Translations under genes and position numbers: made by a program
Shown: in pieces, positions 5,368 through 14,793 of the stretch
Position numbering within the stretch: position 1 is the first letter of the stretch
Layout of the letters: each line of letters starts with the position of its first letter
Notes under the pieces: generated by a model
The model's input: the letters and a program-made list of their open reading frames with translations, nothing else
What the model was told of the DNA's origin: nothing
Database searches by the model: none
Assembly: GCF_019797765.1 (NCBI RefSeq)
Contig: NZ_CP081862.1
Location: forward strand, 2,542,001-2,606,000
Source: Cellulomonas sp. C5510
GTDB lineage: Bacteria > Actinomycetota > Actinomycetes > Actinomycetales > Cellulomonadaceae
Length of the DNA: 64,000 nt
Direction of reading: 5' to 3'

Positions 5368-5539
5368 GGGTGCCCTCCTTCGTCTTGAGGGCGCCGGACC
5401 GGTCACGGCGGTCTTCGATCGAGGAGCCCGGACACGCGTTCCGGGAACCACTACCGAGGACCGGACGCGTCGACCGGCACCCGTCGTTGCTGGTGTCTTG
5501 CTGGGTGGGACGTGTGCGCCGGGCCGGGGCCCGACGCGC

Positions 5540-7114: not shown

Positions 7115-8071
7115 TCAGGACGCGGCGGCGAACACGAGCACCGGGCGGGCGTGCGGCCCGCGGTCCTCGAGCAGCGCCGCCAGCTCCCCGTCGGGCGTCA
7201 CGGCCGCGACCGTGACGCCCGCCCCCGAGCCCGACGCGGGGATCCGCTGCCCGAACGACAGGGCACGCGCCTCGTCCCCGGTGAGCTCGCGGACGGGGAA
7301 CGTCGCGCGGGCGGCGTCCGCCAGGGGCAGCGTGTCCAGCGGGACGTCCGCCGGCCACGCGTCCAACTGCTCGAGCGTCCGGGCGTCCGCCACCGGGTAG
7401 CCGCCGACGCGGGTGCGCCGCAGCGCGGTCAGGTGGCCGCCGACGCCGAGCGCGCGGCCGAGGTCACGGGCCAGGGCGCGGATGTAGGTCCCGGAGGAGC
7501 ACACCACGGTGACGTCCACGTCGACCGCCGGCACACCCGCGTCGACGGCGGGCCGCACCGTGTGCACGTCGAACCGGTGGATCGTCACGGACCGGGCGGC
7601 GAGCTCGACGTCCTCCCCGGCGCGGACCCGGGCGTAGGCGCGCTGCCCGTCCACCTTGATCGCGCTGACGGCGCTCGGGACCTGCTGGATCGGGCCGGTG
7701 AGCGCGGCGACGCCCGCCTCCACGGCGGCTCGCGTCACGCCGGAGGCGTCCGCGCGGGTCAGCACCTCGCCCTCGGCGTCGTCCGTCGTGGTCGCGACGC
7801 CGAGGCGCACGGTGGCGGTGTACTCCTTGTCGGCGCCCACCACGTAGGTCAGCAGCCGGGTGGCCCGGCCGACGCCCAGCACGAGCACGCCGGTGGCCAT
7901 GGGGTCGAGCGTCCCCGCGTGCCCGACCTTGCGGGTGCCGGCGAGCCCGCGGACCTTCGCGACCACGTCGTGGCTGGTCCAGCCCTGCGGCTTGTCGACG
8001 ACGAGCAGGCCGTCCGGGGCGGTGGGGCGGCGGGGGCGGTCGGGGCGGCGCTGCTCACGCGCGGGGCTCAT
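7115..8071 (-). CDS. truB: tRNA pseudouridine(55) synthase
   Basis: A 318-residue TruB. The catalytic aspartate is D56 in the signature GTLDPMATG, preceded by DGLLVVDKPQGWTSHDVV. It makes the universal pseudouridine 55 in the T-loop of tRNAs. Its C-terminus (RTRVGGYPVADARTLEQL and after) includes the expected PUA-like extension. The ATG overlaps the stop of the upstream TetR gene (ATGA), so truB is translationally coupled to that regulator instead of directly to rbfA as in the usual order. Confidence 0.96.
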   Translation of the reverse strand: MSPAREQRRPDRPRRPTAPDGLLVVDKPQGWTSHDVVAKVRGLAGTRKVGHAGTLDPMATGVLVLGVGRATRLLTYVVGADKEYTATVRLGVATTTDDAEGEVLTRADASGVTRAAVEAGVAALTGPIQQVPSAVSAIKVDGQRAYARVRAGEDVELAARSVTIHRFDVHTVRPAVDAGVPAVDVDVTVVCSSGTYIRALARDLGRALGVGGHLTALRRTRVGGYPVADARTLEQLDAWPADVPLDTLPLADAARATFPVRELTGDEARALSFGQRIPASGSGAGVTVAAVTPDGELAALLEDRGPHARPVLVFAAAS

Positions 8072-8703
8072 GCGCGCTCCCCCGCCGCGGCACCGGCGGC
8101 CGGCACCTCCCCGGCGGCCGCGGCCACCACCTCGGGGGCGAAGCAGCGCAGCAGGGCGTCGAGGCCGGCGTCCTCGCCGGCGTGCGCGAAGCCGTCCGAG
8201 CTGAGCAGCACGTTGAAGAGCATGCCGTCGGCCACGAACCGGCGGGCGGTCTCGTCGGCGTCGGGGACGTCGGCCCCGACGCGCGCCCGGAACAGCCGGA
8301 AGACCTCGCCGAGGGTGTGCCGCGCGAGCTGCCCGACCTCGGCGTCGTCCGACGTGAAGCCGTGCATGAGCACCCGGAGCAGGTCGCGGTCGGCCATGAG
8401 CTCCATGGACGCGCGGCCGGTGCGCTCGACGGCGTCCGGGCCCGGGGCCACCGCGGCCATCGCCTCCAGGACGCGGCCGGTGGCGGACCGGTAGAGCTCG
8501 AGGAACAGGCGCTGCTTGGATCCGAACAGCCGGACGACGTACGGCTGCGAGACGCCGGCGGCCCGCGCGACCTGGTCGGTGGTGGTCCCGGCGTAGCCGC
8601 CCTCGGCGAACACGGTCATCGCGGCGGCCAGGATCTGCTCGCGGCGCCGCTCGCCCGACATCCGGGGCGCGCGGGCGACGGTGCTCCGGGCGTCGACATC
8701 CAT
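8068..8703 (-). CDS. TetR family transcriptional regulator
   Basis: A 211-residue TetR-type repressor. The N-terminal HTH is clear (REQILAAAMTVFAEGGYAGTTTDQVARAAGVSQPYVVRLFGSKQRLF is the domain; key pieces are AGTTTDQVARAAGVS and the recognition segment QPYVVRLFGSK). The C-terminal ligand domain is unrelated to the other TetR in this window. The gene lies between rbfA and truB, divergent from an efflux-pump remnant, and overlaps truB by 4 bp. Paired palindromes 10-67 bp upstream are likely autoregulatory operators. ATG 8703 was used; ATG at residue 15 is possible. Confidence 0.9.
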   Translation of the reverse strand: MDVDARSTVARAPRMSGERRREQILAAAMTVFAEGGYAGTTTDQVARAAGVSQPYVVRLFGSKQRLFLELYRSATGRVLEAMAAVAPGPDAVERTGRASMELMADRDLLRVLMHGFTSDDAEVGQLARHTLGEVFRLFRARVGADVPDADETARRFVADGMLFNVLLSSDGFAHAGEDAGLDALLRCFAPEVVAAAAGEVPAAGAAAGERA

Positions 8704-9657: not shown

Positions 9658-12507
9658 TCAGGAACGCGGCTTCTCGCGCAGCTCCCAGGTCTCGATGACG
9701 TCACCCTCGGTGATGTCGTTGTACGACCCGAGGCCGATACCGCACTCGTAGCCCTCGCGGACCTCGGTGGCGTCGTCCTTGAACCGCTTGAGCGACTCGA
9801 TGGTGAGGTTGTCACCGATGACGTTGCCGTTCCGGAGCACCCGCGCCTTGGAGTTGCGGCGGATCTCCCCGGACCGGACCAGCGAACCGGCGATGTTGCC
9901 GAACTTGGAGGAGCGGAACACCTCGCGCACCTCGGCGGTACCGAGCTGCACCTCCTCGTACTCCGGCTTGAGCATGCCCTTGAGGGCGGCCTCGACGTCG
10001 TCGATCGCCTGGTAGATGACCGAGTAGAACCGGACGTCCACGCCCTCGCGCTCGGCGAGCTCCTCCACCCGCTCCGCGTACTTGACGTTGAAGCCGATGA
10101 TGATCGCGTTGTCGACCGTCGCGAGGTTGACGTCGTTCTGCGTGATCGCACCGACACCGCGGTGGATGACCCGCAGGTCGACCTCGTCGCCCACGTCGAT
10201 CTTGAGCAGCGCGTCCTCCAGCGCCTCGACGGCACCGGACACGTCGCCCTTGAGGACCAGGTTGAGGGTCTCGACCTTGCCCTGCTGGAGCGCCTGCGTG
10301 AAGTCCTCGAGGCTGATGCGCTTGCGGCGCTTGGCCAGGAGGGCGGCACGCTCGGCGGCCTCGCGCTTCTCGGCGATCTGCCGCGCGGTCCGCTCGTCGG
10401 GCGCCACCAGGAAGGTGTCGCCGGCGCTCGGCACCGACGCCAGGCCGAGGACCAGCACCGGACGGGCCGGGCCCGCCTCGGTGACGTTGTCCCCGTGCTC
10501 GTCGAACATCGCCCGGACGCGGCCGTGGGCCGTGCCCGCGACGATCGCGTCACCGACGTGCAGCGTGCCGGACTGGACCAGCACGGTCGCGACGGCGCCG
10601 CGGCCCTTGTCGAGGTTCGCCTCGATGGCGACACCGCGGGCGTCCTTGTCGGGGTTGGCCCGCAGGTCGAGCGCGGCGTCCGCGGTCAGCAGCACGGCCT
10701 CGAGGAGGTCGTCGATGCCCATCCGCTGCTTGGCGGAGACGTCGACGAACATCGTGTCGCCGCCGTACTCCTCGGCCACCAGGTTGTACTCGGTGAGCTG
10801 CTGGCGGATCTTGGCGGGGTTGGCCCCCTCCTTGTCCACCTTGTTGACCGCGACCACGATCGGCACGTTCGCCGCCTGGGCGTGGTTGAGCGCCTCGATG
10901 GTCTGGGGCATCACGCCGTCGTCCGCCGCGACCACGAGGATCGCGATGTCCGTCACCTGCGCACCACGGGCACGCATGGCGGTGAACGCCTCGTGACCCG
11001 GGGTGTCGATGAACGTGATGGCCCGGTCCTGGCCCTCGTGCTCCGTGCGGACCTGGTAGGCACCGATGTGCTGCGTGATCCCGCCGGCCTCGCCCGCGAC
11101 GACGTCCGTGGAGCGGATCGCGTCGAGGAGCTTGGTCTTTCCGTGGTCGACGTGACCCATGACCGTGACGACCGGCGGGCGAGGGAACAGGTCCTCGTCG
11201 GACTCCCCCTCGAGCTCGGCGTCCAGGTCGATGTCGAAGGCCCCGAGCAGCTCGCGGTCCTCCTCCTCGGCCGAGACCATCTCCACGACGTAGCCGAGCT
11301 CGGTGGCCAGCGTGCCGAAGGTGTCCTCGTCGAGGGACTGCGTCGCCGTGGCCATCTCACCGAGGTGGAACAGCACCGTGACCAGCGAGGCCGGGTTGGC
11401 GTCGATCTTGTCGGCGAAGTCGTTCAGCGACGAGCCGTGGCGCAGGCGGATGACGGTCGAGCCGTTCCCGCGCGGCACCTGCACGCCGCCGAGCGACGGC
11501 GCCTGCATCTGCTCGAACTCCTGGCGCTTCGCCCGCTTCGACTTCCGTCCGCGGACGGGACGGCCGCCGGCGCGCCCGAAGGCACCCTGCGTCGAGCCGC
11601 GGCCACCGGCACCCGGACGGCCACCGCCGCCGGGACGGCCGCCGAAGCCGCCGCCACCACCGGGACGGCCACCGCCACCGCCGTAGCCGCCGCCACCGCC
11701 GGGACGGCCACCGCCACCGCCCGCGCGGGCGGGACGGTCACCGGGACGGCCGACGCCGCTGGTGCTGCGGCCGGGCATCATGCCGGGGTTCGGCCGCGGG
11801 GCACCGGGACGCGGCGCCGCGGGACGCGGGCCACCCGGGCGGTCGCCGGCACCCGCGGACGCAGCAGGCGCCTCGGAGCGGCGCTCGCCGGGACGGGGCA
11901 TGCCCTGCGAGGGCGCGAACGGGTTGTTGCCCGGACGCGGGCCACCGGGACGCGGGCCACCGGAGCGCGGCATGCCCTGCGAGGGCGCGAACGGGTTGTT
12001 GCCCGGACGCGGCCCACCGGGACGCGGGGCGCCACCGGGACGACCGGAGCGGCCGTCACCGCCCTCGGTCGGGCGCGACGGCGCCGCGGGACGCGGCGAC
12101 GGGGCGGCCGGACGCGGGGCGGCCGGACGGGCCGCCGGAGCCGCCTGCTCGGCGGGGGCGGCCGGGGCCGTGGGCTCCGCCGGTGCGGACGCGGCCGGGG
12201 CCTCGGGGGCCGGGCGCTGCGCCGGGCCGGGGGTCGCCGCCGGGGCGGACGCCGCGGGGCGGGCCGCCGGGGCCGGCGAGGGTGCCGGGGCGGACGCCGC
12301 GGGGGCGGCGGCCGGGGCCGGGCGGGCGGGGGCGGGCTTGGCGCCGCCACCGGCCGGGTAGGTGTCCCGCAGCTTGCGGACCACCGGCGGCTCGATCGTC
12401 GAGGACGCCGAGCGCACGAACTCACCGAGCTCGTTCAGCTTGGTCATGAGGGTCTTGCTGTCGACTCCGAGCTCCTTGGCGAGCTCGTAGACGCGGACCT
12501 TGGCCAC
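9658..12507 (-). CDS. infB: Translation initiation factor IF-2
   Basis: A 949-residue IF-2 GTPase that brings fMet-tRNA to the 30S subunit and drives subunit joining. The N-terminus has the IF2-N fold ([22 protein letters not shown]). Residues about 50-340 are a disordered Pro/Ala/Gly/Arg region with a 24-residue direct repeat and a glycine-rich stretch, typical for actinobacteria. G1 is GHVDHGKT at 451-458; later GTPase motifs include DTPGH and NKVD. Domains II-IV follow to the end. The start is GTG 12507 with GGGAGAG six bases upstream, in a leader with unusual mini-ORFs and a hairpin. Confidence 0.97.
11898..12041 (-). repeat. Two 72-bp direct repeats in the infB disordered region
   Basis: Two adjacent 72-bp copies (11898-11969, 11970-12041) encode a 24-residue unit that begins [13 protein letters not shown] and continues with GGPRPG. 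Copies differ at few bases, indicating recent duplication or homogenisation. Confidence 0.8.
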
Positions 12508-12513
12508 ATCTCT

Positions 12514-12540
12514 CCCTGTCTCGGCCCGCCCAGGACAGGG
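12514..12540 (-). promoter_or_regulatory. Hairpin overlapping the infB ribosome-binding site
   Basis: Arms CCCTGTC and GACAGGG (7 bp, 13-nt loop) in the infB leader. The downstream arm ends in AGGG, the first part of the AGGGAGAG ribosome-binding sequence just before GTG 12507, so folding would partly hide the site. Confidence 0.45.
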
Positions 12541-12550
12541 TGGACCGTCG

Positions 12551-12607
12551 TTAGTGCTGGGTACTCATCGCTGGGTACTCATCGGTGCGTGCTCATCGGG
12601 CAGCCAT
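12551..12607 (-). other. Chain of four ATGA-overlapping mini-ORFs in the infB leader
   Basis: Four tiny ORFs run one into the next: 12607-12593 (MAAR), 12596-12579 (MSTHR), 12582-12565 (MSTQR) and 12568-12551 (MSTQH, stop TAA). The first three stop codons each overlap the next ATG as ATGA. The chain ends 43 nt before the infB start codon. Whether it is translated is unknown. Confidence 0.5.
12556..12597 (-). repeat. 14-bp tandem repeat, three copies
   Basis: Copies at 12556-12569 and 12570-12583 are identical (minus strand GATGAGTACCCAGC); the third at 12584-12597 is diverged (GATGAGCACGCACC). The repeat creates the start and stop codons of the mini-ORF chain. Confidence 0.85.
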
Positions 12608-12681
12608 CGGCTCTTCGACCCGCTTTCCTGTTCGACGGTGCACATGCCACCGGGCAGGCGCCCGGCGGCGACGGTCGTGCC

Positions 12682-14175: not shown

Positions 14176-14793
14176 TCAGTCCTCCCGGCCCGTCGGCCCG
14201 TCCGCCGCGCCGTCGCCGGCGCCGTCCTCGCCGCGCCCGCCGTCCTTGACGAGCTCGACCTCCACCCGGCCCTCGCGCACCCGCTCGAGCGGGACCCGCA
14301 CCGGGTCGCCGACCTTCGCGGGCCGGCCCTTGAGTCCCGGGGTCACGGGGGTGACGACCACCGTGTCACCGTCGGCCCCGTCGGCCCCGTCAGCCCCGTC
14401 GGCCCCGTCAGCCCCGCCGGCGACGACGTCCACGAGGCGGCCGGCCAGCACCGTCCCGTCGGCCAGACCGAGGACGACCAGCCGCCCGAGGGCGCGGGCG
14501 TAGTGCCGGCGCGCGGTGAGCGGGGCGTCGGCCCCGCGGGTCGACACCTCGAGGGTGTACCGGTCCGGCAGGCCGTCGAGCGCGTCGAGCGCGTCGGACA
14601 CGGTGCGCGACACCGCGGCGACGCCGTCCAGGTCGACGGCCTCCTCGGCGTCCTCCACCGCGTCGACCACGACGCGCACCACCGGCTGGCCGGCGTCGCG
14701 CGCGAGCTCGACGTCCTCCAGCCACAGCCCGGCGGCGGCCACCACCGGCTCGATGGTCTCCCGGATGCGCTGCGCGCTGACGGGCGCGGGCAT
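14176..14793 (-). CDS. rimP: Ribosome maturation factor RimP
   Basis: A 205-residue RimP, needed for 30S maturation. The N-terminal domain ([28 protein letters not shown]) and the motif [15 protein letters not shown] are typical. The C-terminal Sm-like domain is interrupted by (GAD)5, encoded by five 9-bp tandem repeats, and the protein ends in an acidic Gly/Asp tail. AGGAGG six bases before ATG 14793 fixes the start and trims 66 residues from the open frame. It is the first gene of rimP-nusA-ylxR-infB. Confidence 0.95.
14371..14415 (-). repeat. Five tandem 9-bp repeats inside rimP
   Basis: Units of gtcggcccc (third and fifth gtcagcccc) encode Gly-Ala-Asp five times. The run is a likely slippage site that keeps frame in 9-bp steps. 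Confidence 0.85.

Follow-up and report, generated by a model that had tools for sequence, protein, structure and literature searches.

A conserved chain of stop-start-linked mini-ORFs precedes infB in Actinomycetes: a candidate translational attenuator of initiation factor IF2

The intergenic region between ylxR and infB of Cellulomonas sp. C5510 contains a chain of linked mini-ORFs which is not a chance product. The chain is almost certainly a real cis-regulatory leader of infB, the gene of translation initiation factor IF2, and it is kept across the class Actinomycetes. Judged from conservation, translation of the mini-ORFs and their coupling through re-initiation are highly probable. For the function of the leader we propose a cis-acting translational attenuator of infB across Actinomycetes, which would exert negative feedback on IF2; we hold this proposal to be close to evenly balanced, and its sign is one that we infer. 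A search of open-licence PMC articles, mostly of their titles and abstracts, retrieved no description of this leader, nor of a re-initiation-reading leader that sets IF2.

Methods

"Class" denotes Actinomycetes in the NCBI taxonomy. "Order" denotes the group of all loci L001-L110 plus the same-order handles; named loci were assigned by title, and L090 (uncultured actinobacterium) may not belong to this group. The leaders of relatives were anchored on the conserved IF2 start, and the upstream DNA was read. Among 239 loci, the infB start was placed in 207, which are 187 loci of the class (all with at least 150 nt upstream) and 20 out of class; 32 loci of L001-L139 were left out because the start motif was absent from the match or beyond the sequence read. 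The best-scoring class matches make up L111-L139; for L140-L219, 80 matches were picked manually so as to cover a wide spread, and L220-L239 comprise 20 among the out-of-class matches listed, from other classes of the phylum. For most counts, 97 representatives with pairwise scores below 75% were used; depending on tail length, folding tests were performed on 94 or 95 of them. Alignment A1 (34 rows) omits L052, L090, and L205, which are without a good stem S2 (see Table 1), so that it is biased towards S2; it also omits tails outside 38-52 nt. Alignment A2 (33 rows) consists of leaders with three or four mini-ORFs only and so leans to typical leaders. A covariance model was built from 33 class leaders. 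Note that the leaders share descent; all counts and statistics given below therefore overstate independence.

Results

The infB leader of Cellulomonas sp. C5510

The window, i.e. the whole stretch of 64,000 nucleotides that was analysed, carries on its minus strand the gene order rimP - nusA - ylxR - infB - rbfA. An earlier note on this DNA had named IF-2 as the product of the downstream gene, in agreement with the NCBIfam model TIGR00487, which scores 762.7 bits at a cut-off of 424.4. NusA and RbfA are matched above the cut-offs of their NCBIfam models, RimP and YlxR/RnpM below. The features of the leader are collected in Table 1. When the sequence was re-read, the four minus-strand mini-ORFs of the earlier note were found as described, including the overlap of the first three stops with the next ATG as ATGA; the 4-nt stop/start overlap on the same strand thus holds for three of three links. 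The TAA which ends the chain is likewise separated from infB by the 43 nt given there (gap 12550-12508, GTG at 12507), so infB is neither overlapped nor closely abutted by the chain. The 14-bp tandem repeat seen behind the last three mini-ORFs was recovered by Tandem Repeats Finder and is common to mini-ORFs 2-4. Considering both strands of the whole window, there is a single chain of at least two ORFs that start with ATG, are linked by ATGA, and do not exceed 8 codons, and this is the chain in the infB leader.

Table 1. Features of the infB leader; positions refer to the window.
Feature	Position	Strand	Basis
ylxR stop codon	12684-12682	-	upstream border of the chain-bearing intergenic region
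GGGT, SD-like block 10 nt upstream of mini-ORF 1	12618..12621	-	presumed SD function
Mini-ORF 1, MAAR*	12593..12607	-	read from sequence
Mini-ORF 2, MSTHR*	12579..12596	-	start overlaps stop of mini-ORF 1 (ATGA)
Mini-ORF 3, MSTQR*	12565..12582	-	ATGA overlap with mini-ORF 2
Mini-ORF 4, MSTQH*, stop TAA	12551..12568	-	ATGA overlap with mini-ORF 3
14-bp tandem repeat, source of the extra mini-ORF	12556..12598	-	Tandem Repeats Finder: period 14, 3.1 copies, 89% matches
Hairpin S1: 12547-12542 with 12527-12522, extended by 12540-12538 with 12531-12529	12522..12547	-	tail MFE
Stem S2: 12540-12534 with 12520-12514, 7 bp, hides part of the SD	12514..12540	-	duplex versus shuffles; covariation
SD-like AGGGAGA of infB	12511..12517	-	read from sequence
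Pairing S3: 12528-12523 with infB nt 12499-12494 (end of codon 3 to codon 5)	12494..12528	-	read from sequence
infB, translation initiation factor IF2, GTG start	9658..12507	-	ORF list; TIGR00487

In many other class leaders, the peptide of the first ORF is MSTR, MSAR, MGTR, MATR or similar. The 5' GGT block varies little or not at all among 33 aligned leaders. A fixed distance of 10 nt between RGGT and a mini-ORF start was rejected: RGGT stands 10 nt before such a start in only 22 of the 97 representatives and 9 nt before one in 20. In an Rfam scan, the leader matched no curated family at gathering score. The sole gathering-score match in the window is an Actino-pnp RNA (RF01688, 50.9 bits) at 5407-5465 on the minus strand. 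We also observed a TetR-type regulator between rbfA and truB (8068-8703, minus strand; matched at sub-cut-off scores by several NCBIfam models of the TetR family), a 9-bp repeat at 14369-14421, which gives rise to a GAD-rich stretch in the RimP-like ORF, and 39-bp repeats at 11639-11721, where the N-terminal part of infB is rich in glycine and proline.

Conservation and frame linkage of the chain

In the last 220 nt before infB, at least three linked mini-ORFs were found in 172 of the 187 class leaders and two in the other 15. Dinucleotide shuffles of the 220-nt class leaders (n = 5,610) contained at least three linked ORFs in 6.8% of cases and at least four (ATG, GTG or TTG starts) in 1.1%. 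Outside the class, none of the 20 leaders, which stem from other classes of the phylum, had three or more; two were found in 4 of these 20. Named genera with the chain include Cellulomonas, Flavimobilis, Promicromonospora, Ruania, Luteimicrobium, Kineococcus, Terrabacter, Arthrobacter, and Micrococcus; the Sinomonas leader has two linked ORFs, and some other class leaders presumably resemble those of Streptomyces and Mycobacterium. The number of mini-ORFs per representative is three in 72 of 97 cases, four in 10, two in 13, and one and five in one case each. The earlier note had advised comparing the ylxR-infB gaps of related genomes, and this comparison showed that the ATGA chain is kept; among 29 Cellulomonas-type leaders, counting that of this genome, 28 have four units, and the remaining one, L027, parses as five. 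The Cellulomonas tandem repeat thus adds one unit to a chain which has three in most class members.

The arrangement of the reading frames is conserved as well. For consecutive ATGAs at most 30 nt apart in the 97 representatives, the spacing is 2 mod 3 in 145 of 161 cases: 83 times 14 nt, 51 times 11 nt, 7 times 17 nt, and 4 times 8, 20 or 29 nt. Such distances are required if every ORF is to terminate on the start codon of its successor, which suggests selection on the reading frames as such. The 191 links of the representatives are formed by 175 ATGA, 13 GTGA, and 3 TTGA (the parser counts these starts only), and the same-genus leader L007 has one GTGA link in place of ATGA. All linked stops are TGA, and the last sense codon before TGA is CGA in 127 of 191 links; a slow codon in this place could prolong each stop. 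The final stop of the chain varies (47 TAA, 32 TAG, 18 TGA). Between the last mini-ORF and infB, the gap measures 35-66 nt in 94 of 97 representatives and at least 35 nt in 96; the outliers are 0 nt (L203), 81 nt (L168), and 119 nt (L038, where the parse ends before its longer last ORF). In Arthrobacter and relatives, Sinomonas among them, the last ORF is 66-81 nt long, in frame, and ends just before hairpin S1 (L038, L045, L054, and others); it is open up to the stop preceding S1 in 28 of 28 leaders with this S1 motif. Selection at the level of the peptide was rejected for this long ORF, which has 14, 17, and 13 variable sites at codon positions 1, 2, and 3. The frame linkage, the open last ORF of Arthrobacter, and the missing wobble bias suggest selection for translation and restart and not for a peptide; for the attenuator proposed below, the missing wobble bias is nevertheless a point against. 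No conserved arrest peptide was found in the leaders compared, as the peptides of the last mini-ORF differ in sequence and length. In many Arthrobacter-type leaders, the start of the last mini-ORF lies by eye within a possible hairpin GCGCAAC/GTTGCGC.

Two explanations which do without translation in the leader were weighed against these data. The earlier note had suggested that the chain could be a chance result of repeat expansion, and the last three units are in fact tandem copies here; however, the chain also occurs in lineages with diverged units and is mostly absent from shuffles. Repeat expansion accounts for the extra fourth unit of Cellulomonas; beyond that, these comparisons already contradict it, and its probability is next to nil. 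The leader could also be an untranslated protein- or RNA-binding repeat motif that merely contains ATGA, as CGATGAG is strongly conserved at the nucleotide level in 33 aligned leaders. This is very improbable, since the spacing differs by lineage (8, 11, 14, 17, 20 nt) and nevertheless keeps the frame in most cases; the variable final stop and the open Arthrobacter-type last ORFs argue in the same direction. The 16 GTG or TTG links and the GTG link of L007 also speak against a binding motif, a weak point because the parser counts start codons only.

Restriction of the chain to infB

The covariance model gave one strong match in this genome, at infB (E 2.7e-27); the next match has an E-value of 0.02. 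In a search of 149 genomes of the phylum with stricter filters, a strong match was obtained in 13 of 13 class members (E 2e-35 to 5e-8), 11 of which were outside the training leaders of the model. In 12 of the 13 the strong match adjoins the infB start as placed by protein search; in the remaining genome, G040, infB was not found by this search. Weak second matches occur in some class members, with a best E-value of 0.003. The 136 genomes outside the class contained no strong match, and 58 of them have weak matches only (E 1.8e-4 to 0.1). These searches support a chain that is specific to infB. In G105, G126, G267, G296, G302, and G308, another open frame (244 to 1382 aa) also matches the IF2 N-terminal query, though less strongly.

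Alternative pairings around the infB start site

The earlier note had described the 7-bp stem (S2) and its overlap with part of the infB SD, both of which were found on re-reading. A competing hairpin that the note did not mention, S1, pairs 12547-12538 with 12531-12522 and begins 3 nt past the last stop codon. Of 95 representatives, 70 have an S1 that outperforms shuffles (p<0.05). The alignment of 33 class leaders shows 87.3% of the S1 cells paired, with a covariation score that is reached by 1 of 500 shuffles; the count of doubly changed pairs in this alignment is matched by 125 of 500. On the order alignment, S1 covariation is weak (39 of 500 shuffles as high). In 36 order tails, the tail MFE begins pairing at nt 1-6 after the last stop.

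The S2 duplex surpasses its shuffles in 28 of the 41 representatives from the order, versus 3 of the 54 others. Both sides change in four of its seven pairs, and its covariation score exceeds that of all 500 shuffles and of all slid controls. An unrestricted search of 36 order tails for the best SD-side duplex placed its beginning at nt 9-17 past the last stop in 31 of them; in the other five it begins at nt 7 (L207) or at nt 2-5 (four leaders). S2 is thus largely specific to the order, whereas the class-wide hairpin is S1, right after the last stop. In this genome and in the order, S1 and S2 overlap and are mutually exclusive in nested folding, with S2 hiding the SD. Folding of the growing RNA of this leader gave S1 as the MFE structure at 28-42 nt (-17.8 at 30-42 nt), and forms with S2 win at 44 nt (-18.1) and at 48-58 nt; over 73 nt, S1 (-31.8) and S2 (-29.7) are about 2 kcal/mol apart. 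According to these calculations, S1 can form first during RNA synthesis in this leader.

In other orders, the 3' strand of S1 can pair with early infB codons (S3), typically with GGTCCG from codon 3 to 5. With 10 nt masked, the pairing of this strand with infB nt 4-30 in 54 other-order leaders has a mean of 0.71 versus 0.47 for GC3-weighted synonymous controls; it is above the control mean in 42 of the 54, with p<=0.1 in 23. When lineages were permuted, none of 2000 trials in these orders equalled the own-lineage duplexes. Within the order, pairing is low (0.26 versus 0.13 for the control; above control in 14 of 41), which is expected if S2 wins but lends no support. In this genome S3 encloses the SD and the start codon, contains one G-U pair, and is not the favoured fold. 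In the region of infB codons 3-6 of class leaders, the first valine codon of the KVRV motif is GTC 61 times, GTT 5 times, and never GTA or GTG (n=66); GTA is found 13 times at the second valine. The fixed GTC/GTT at the first valine fits pairing with the 3' strand of S1.

Two further candidates were rejected. The 5' strand of S1 might be a copy of infB codons, as the shared word has a mean of 5.24 nt versus 4.03 nt for shuffles in 54 other-order leaders; lineage permutations matched it 116 of 2000 times in other orders and 910 of 2000 times in the order, and the idea is kept as a lead. In L162, the S1 5' strand and the infB codons have CGCGTTTA in common, unlike the usual GGTCCG. A hairpin round mini-ORF 1 (CGGGT/ACCCG or TCGAG/CTCGA, by eye) is not claimed, as its register shifts among lineages; alignment folding paired the 5' GGTC block with the 3' strand of S1 instead (4 pairs, -0.94 kcal/mol).

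A proposed attenuator

A ribosome would start on mini-ORF 1 and would then stop and restart at every ATGA, of which there are usually two and here three, until it reaches the last stop. IF2 takes part in every initiation round, and each restart would use IF2 and initiator tRNA. The fraction of ribosomes arriving at the last stop would be approximately the re-initiation efficiency to the power of the link number, i.e. a steep gauge of initiation capacity. Because restart would depend on IF2, the chain would measure IF2 steeply, and IF2 would be the limiting factor. As long as the last stop is free of ribosomes, S1 would fold first and the infB start site would stay open. A ribosome at a stop covers about 10 nt downstream; at the last stop, these are the 5' strand of S1. 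The position of the SD-side duplex in 31 of 36 order tails, with its beginning at nt 9-17, fits this geometry. The 3' region of S1 would be freed, and the start site would be closed by S2 over the SD in this genome and in most of the order. In many leaders of other orders, closure would be brought about by S3 with the early infB codons, which makes S3 a putative inhibitor of infB initiation. At high IF2, the translation of infB would be lower. This differs from the suggestion in the earlier note that reinitiation along the chain sets how often ribosomes open the 7-bp stem: the geometry suggests that a ribosome at the last stop removes S1 and lets the closed S2 or S3 appear.

The effect of the masked nucleotides on the SD was calculated. 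At equilibrium, masking of the 10 nt after the stop caused no fall of the mean SD access in 94 leaders (0.446 free versus 0.456 masked); changes of more than 0.3 were a fall in two and a rise in three leaders. When the masked state was compared with a state in which S1 was enforced, SD access in the order went from 0.50 (S1 enforced) to 0.31 (masked), with a drop of more than 0.2 in 21 of 41 leaders and a rise in 4. For the other orders, the values were 0.59 and 0.57, with a drop in 8 and a rise in 6 of 54. As the drop is seen against S1-enforced folding only, and in the order only, any state maintained by S1 would need to be kinetic, at least in part. The sign of the regulation is argued from geometry and kinetics; equilibrium folding by itself does not yield it.

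Discussion

The mechanism of the proposed attenuator can be tied more closely to the number of links: the leader might be a re-initiation counter, in which IF2 activity to the power of the link number determines a ribosome position that is read by an RNA switch. This reading is tentative, and we incline to doubt it as a whole; it includes an anti-sequestor resembling infB codons, a class-wide counterpart of GCN4 which regulates an initiation factor, and a link number tunable by repeat copies. In yeast GCN4 and mammalian ATF4, several uORFs precede one gene, and re-initiation reads the supply of the initiator-tRNA complex. The infB leader is similar in having several uORFs before one gene and a proposed re-initiation read-out of the initiator-tRNA complex. 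In contrast to these systems, it involves no scanning; restarts would occur at overlapping codons, and the output is proposed to proceed via RNA pairing. In the erm leader-peptide attenuators, the position of a ribosome on the leader ORF selects hairpins which hide or expose the SD, and an analogous choice between hairpins, one of them hiding the SD, is proposed here. However, the infB leader shows no sign of an arrest peptide and has several linked ORFs, and the ribosome at its last stop is predicted to close the start site, not to open it. The autoregulation of the E. coli nusA-infB operon is reportedly the subject of a paper from 1985.

The elements of the leader have further counterparts in the literature. 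Termination-reinitiation coupling at ATGA, as presented in PMC6728339 and PMC10666635, likewise consists of a 4-nt stop/start overlap and a restart by the terminating ribosome; the known cases link two genes, whereas the infB leader links several ORFs of mostly 4-6 codons without evident product, the last of which is not overlap-coupled to the gene. IF3 is described as autoregulating via the non-canonical start codon of infC (PMC5472188), so that both would be cases of an initiation factor acting back on its own mRNA by way of the step under its control. A non-canonical start codon of this type was not found for infB, which has an ordinary GTG here and in the class leaders shown; the sensor would be the re-initiation chain. 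According to PMC2965389, rimP-nusA-infB operons have a transcription attenuator in the rimP leader. This is cis control in the same operon as well, but by a transcription terminator at the operon start and not by a chain between ylxR and infB. With respect to other inputs to the gene, infB is among the named SigR targets in Streptomyces (PMC5472188), and a WhiB7 binding peak upstream of infB is reported for Mycobacterium abscessus (PMC10727445). In E. coli, re-initiation is stated to be raised by IF2 and lowered by IF3, and its demand for IF2 may exceed that of ordinary initiation (PMC2268962). The earlier note had considered an autoregulatory sensor of initiation to be plausible; this effect of IF2 and the conserved, frame-linked, and infB-specific chain, with a structured ribosome-binding site at its end, speak for such a sensor, whereas its sign and wiring we infer.

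Among the rival explanations that accept a translated chain, the opposite sign has to be considered. Ribosomes finishing the chain might melt S1 and aid infB initiation, or reach infB by scanning, which would constitute a positive, feed-forward coupling. S1 lies directly upstream of the SD and would be melted by a ribosome at the last stop, the gap leaves room for both ribosomes in nearly all representatives, and the equilibrium calculations do not favour a negative sign. However, in six pairs of genes from Haloferax and E. coli, intergenic gaps of about 20 nt are reported almost to abolish coupling (PMC10666635), so that with the longer gaps found here direct re-initiation onto infB is unlikely; moreover, S2 covaries and can hide the SD once S1 is gone. 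Taken together, we regard positive coupling as unlikely, though deserving attention. The same switch could also respond to another input, namely the supply of formyl-Met-tRNA or one-carbon units, the action of ppGpp on IF2, IF3, release factor 2, recycling, or the decoding of CGA. The uniform TGA at the links and the frequent CGA before it are compatible with this, and initiator tRNA formylation and IF3 are reported to govern re-initiation, too (PMC2268962); but the association of the leader with infB alone points to the infB product, and we judge a different input to be quite unlikely. Finally, control might act on transcription, with translation of the chain shielding the leader from Rho, or with S1 as a pause or termination hairpin. 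S1 would again be set by ribosome position, and the rimP leader of these operons provides a precedent; yet in this leader S1 is not followed by a T-run but by the SD and coding sequence, and S2 covers the SD, which makes this explanation decidedly improbable.

A leader that is kept class-wide suggests that the level of IF2 is tightly set. The leader also provides a natural assay by which re-initiation can be counted in living cells, and the alignment and the covariance model offer concrete targets for study in ordinary laboratory actinobacteria. If the switch operates as proposed, the copy number of the 14-bp repeat would set the steepness of the feedback loop, and Cellulomonas would run this loop with an extra unit.
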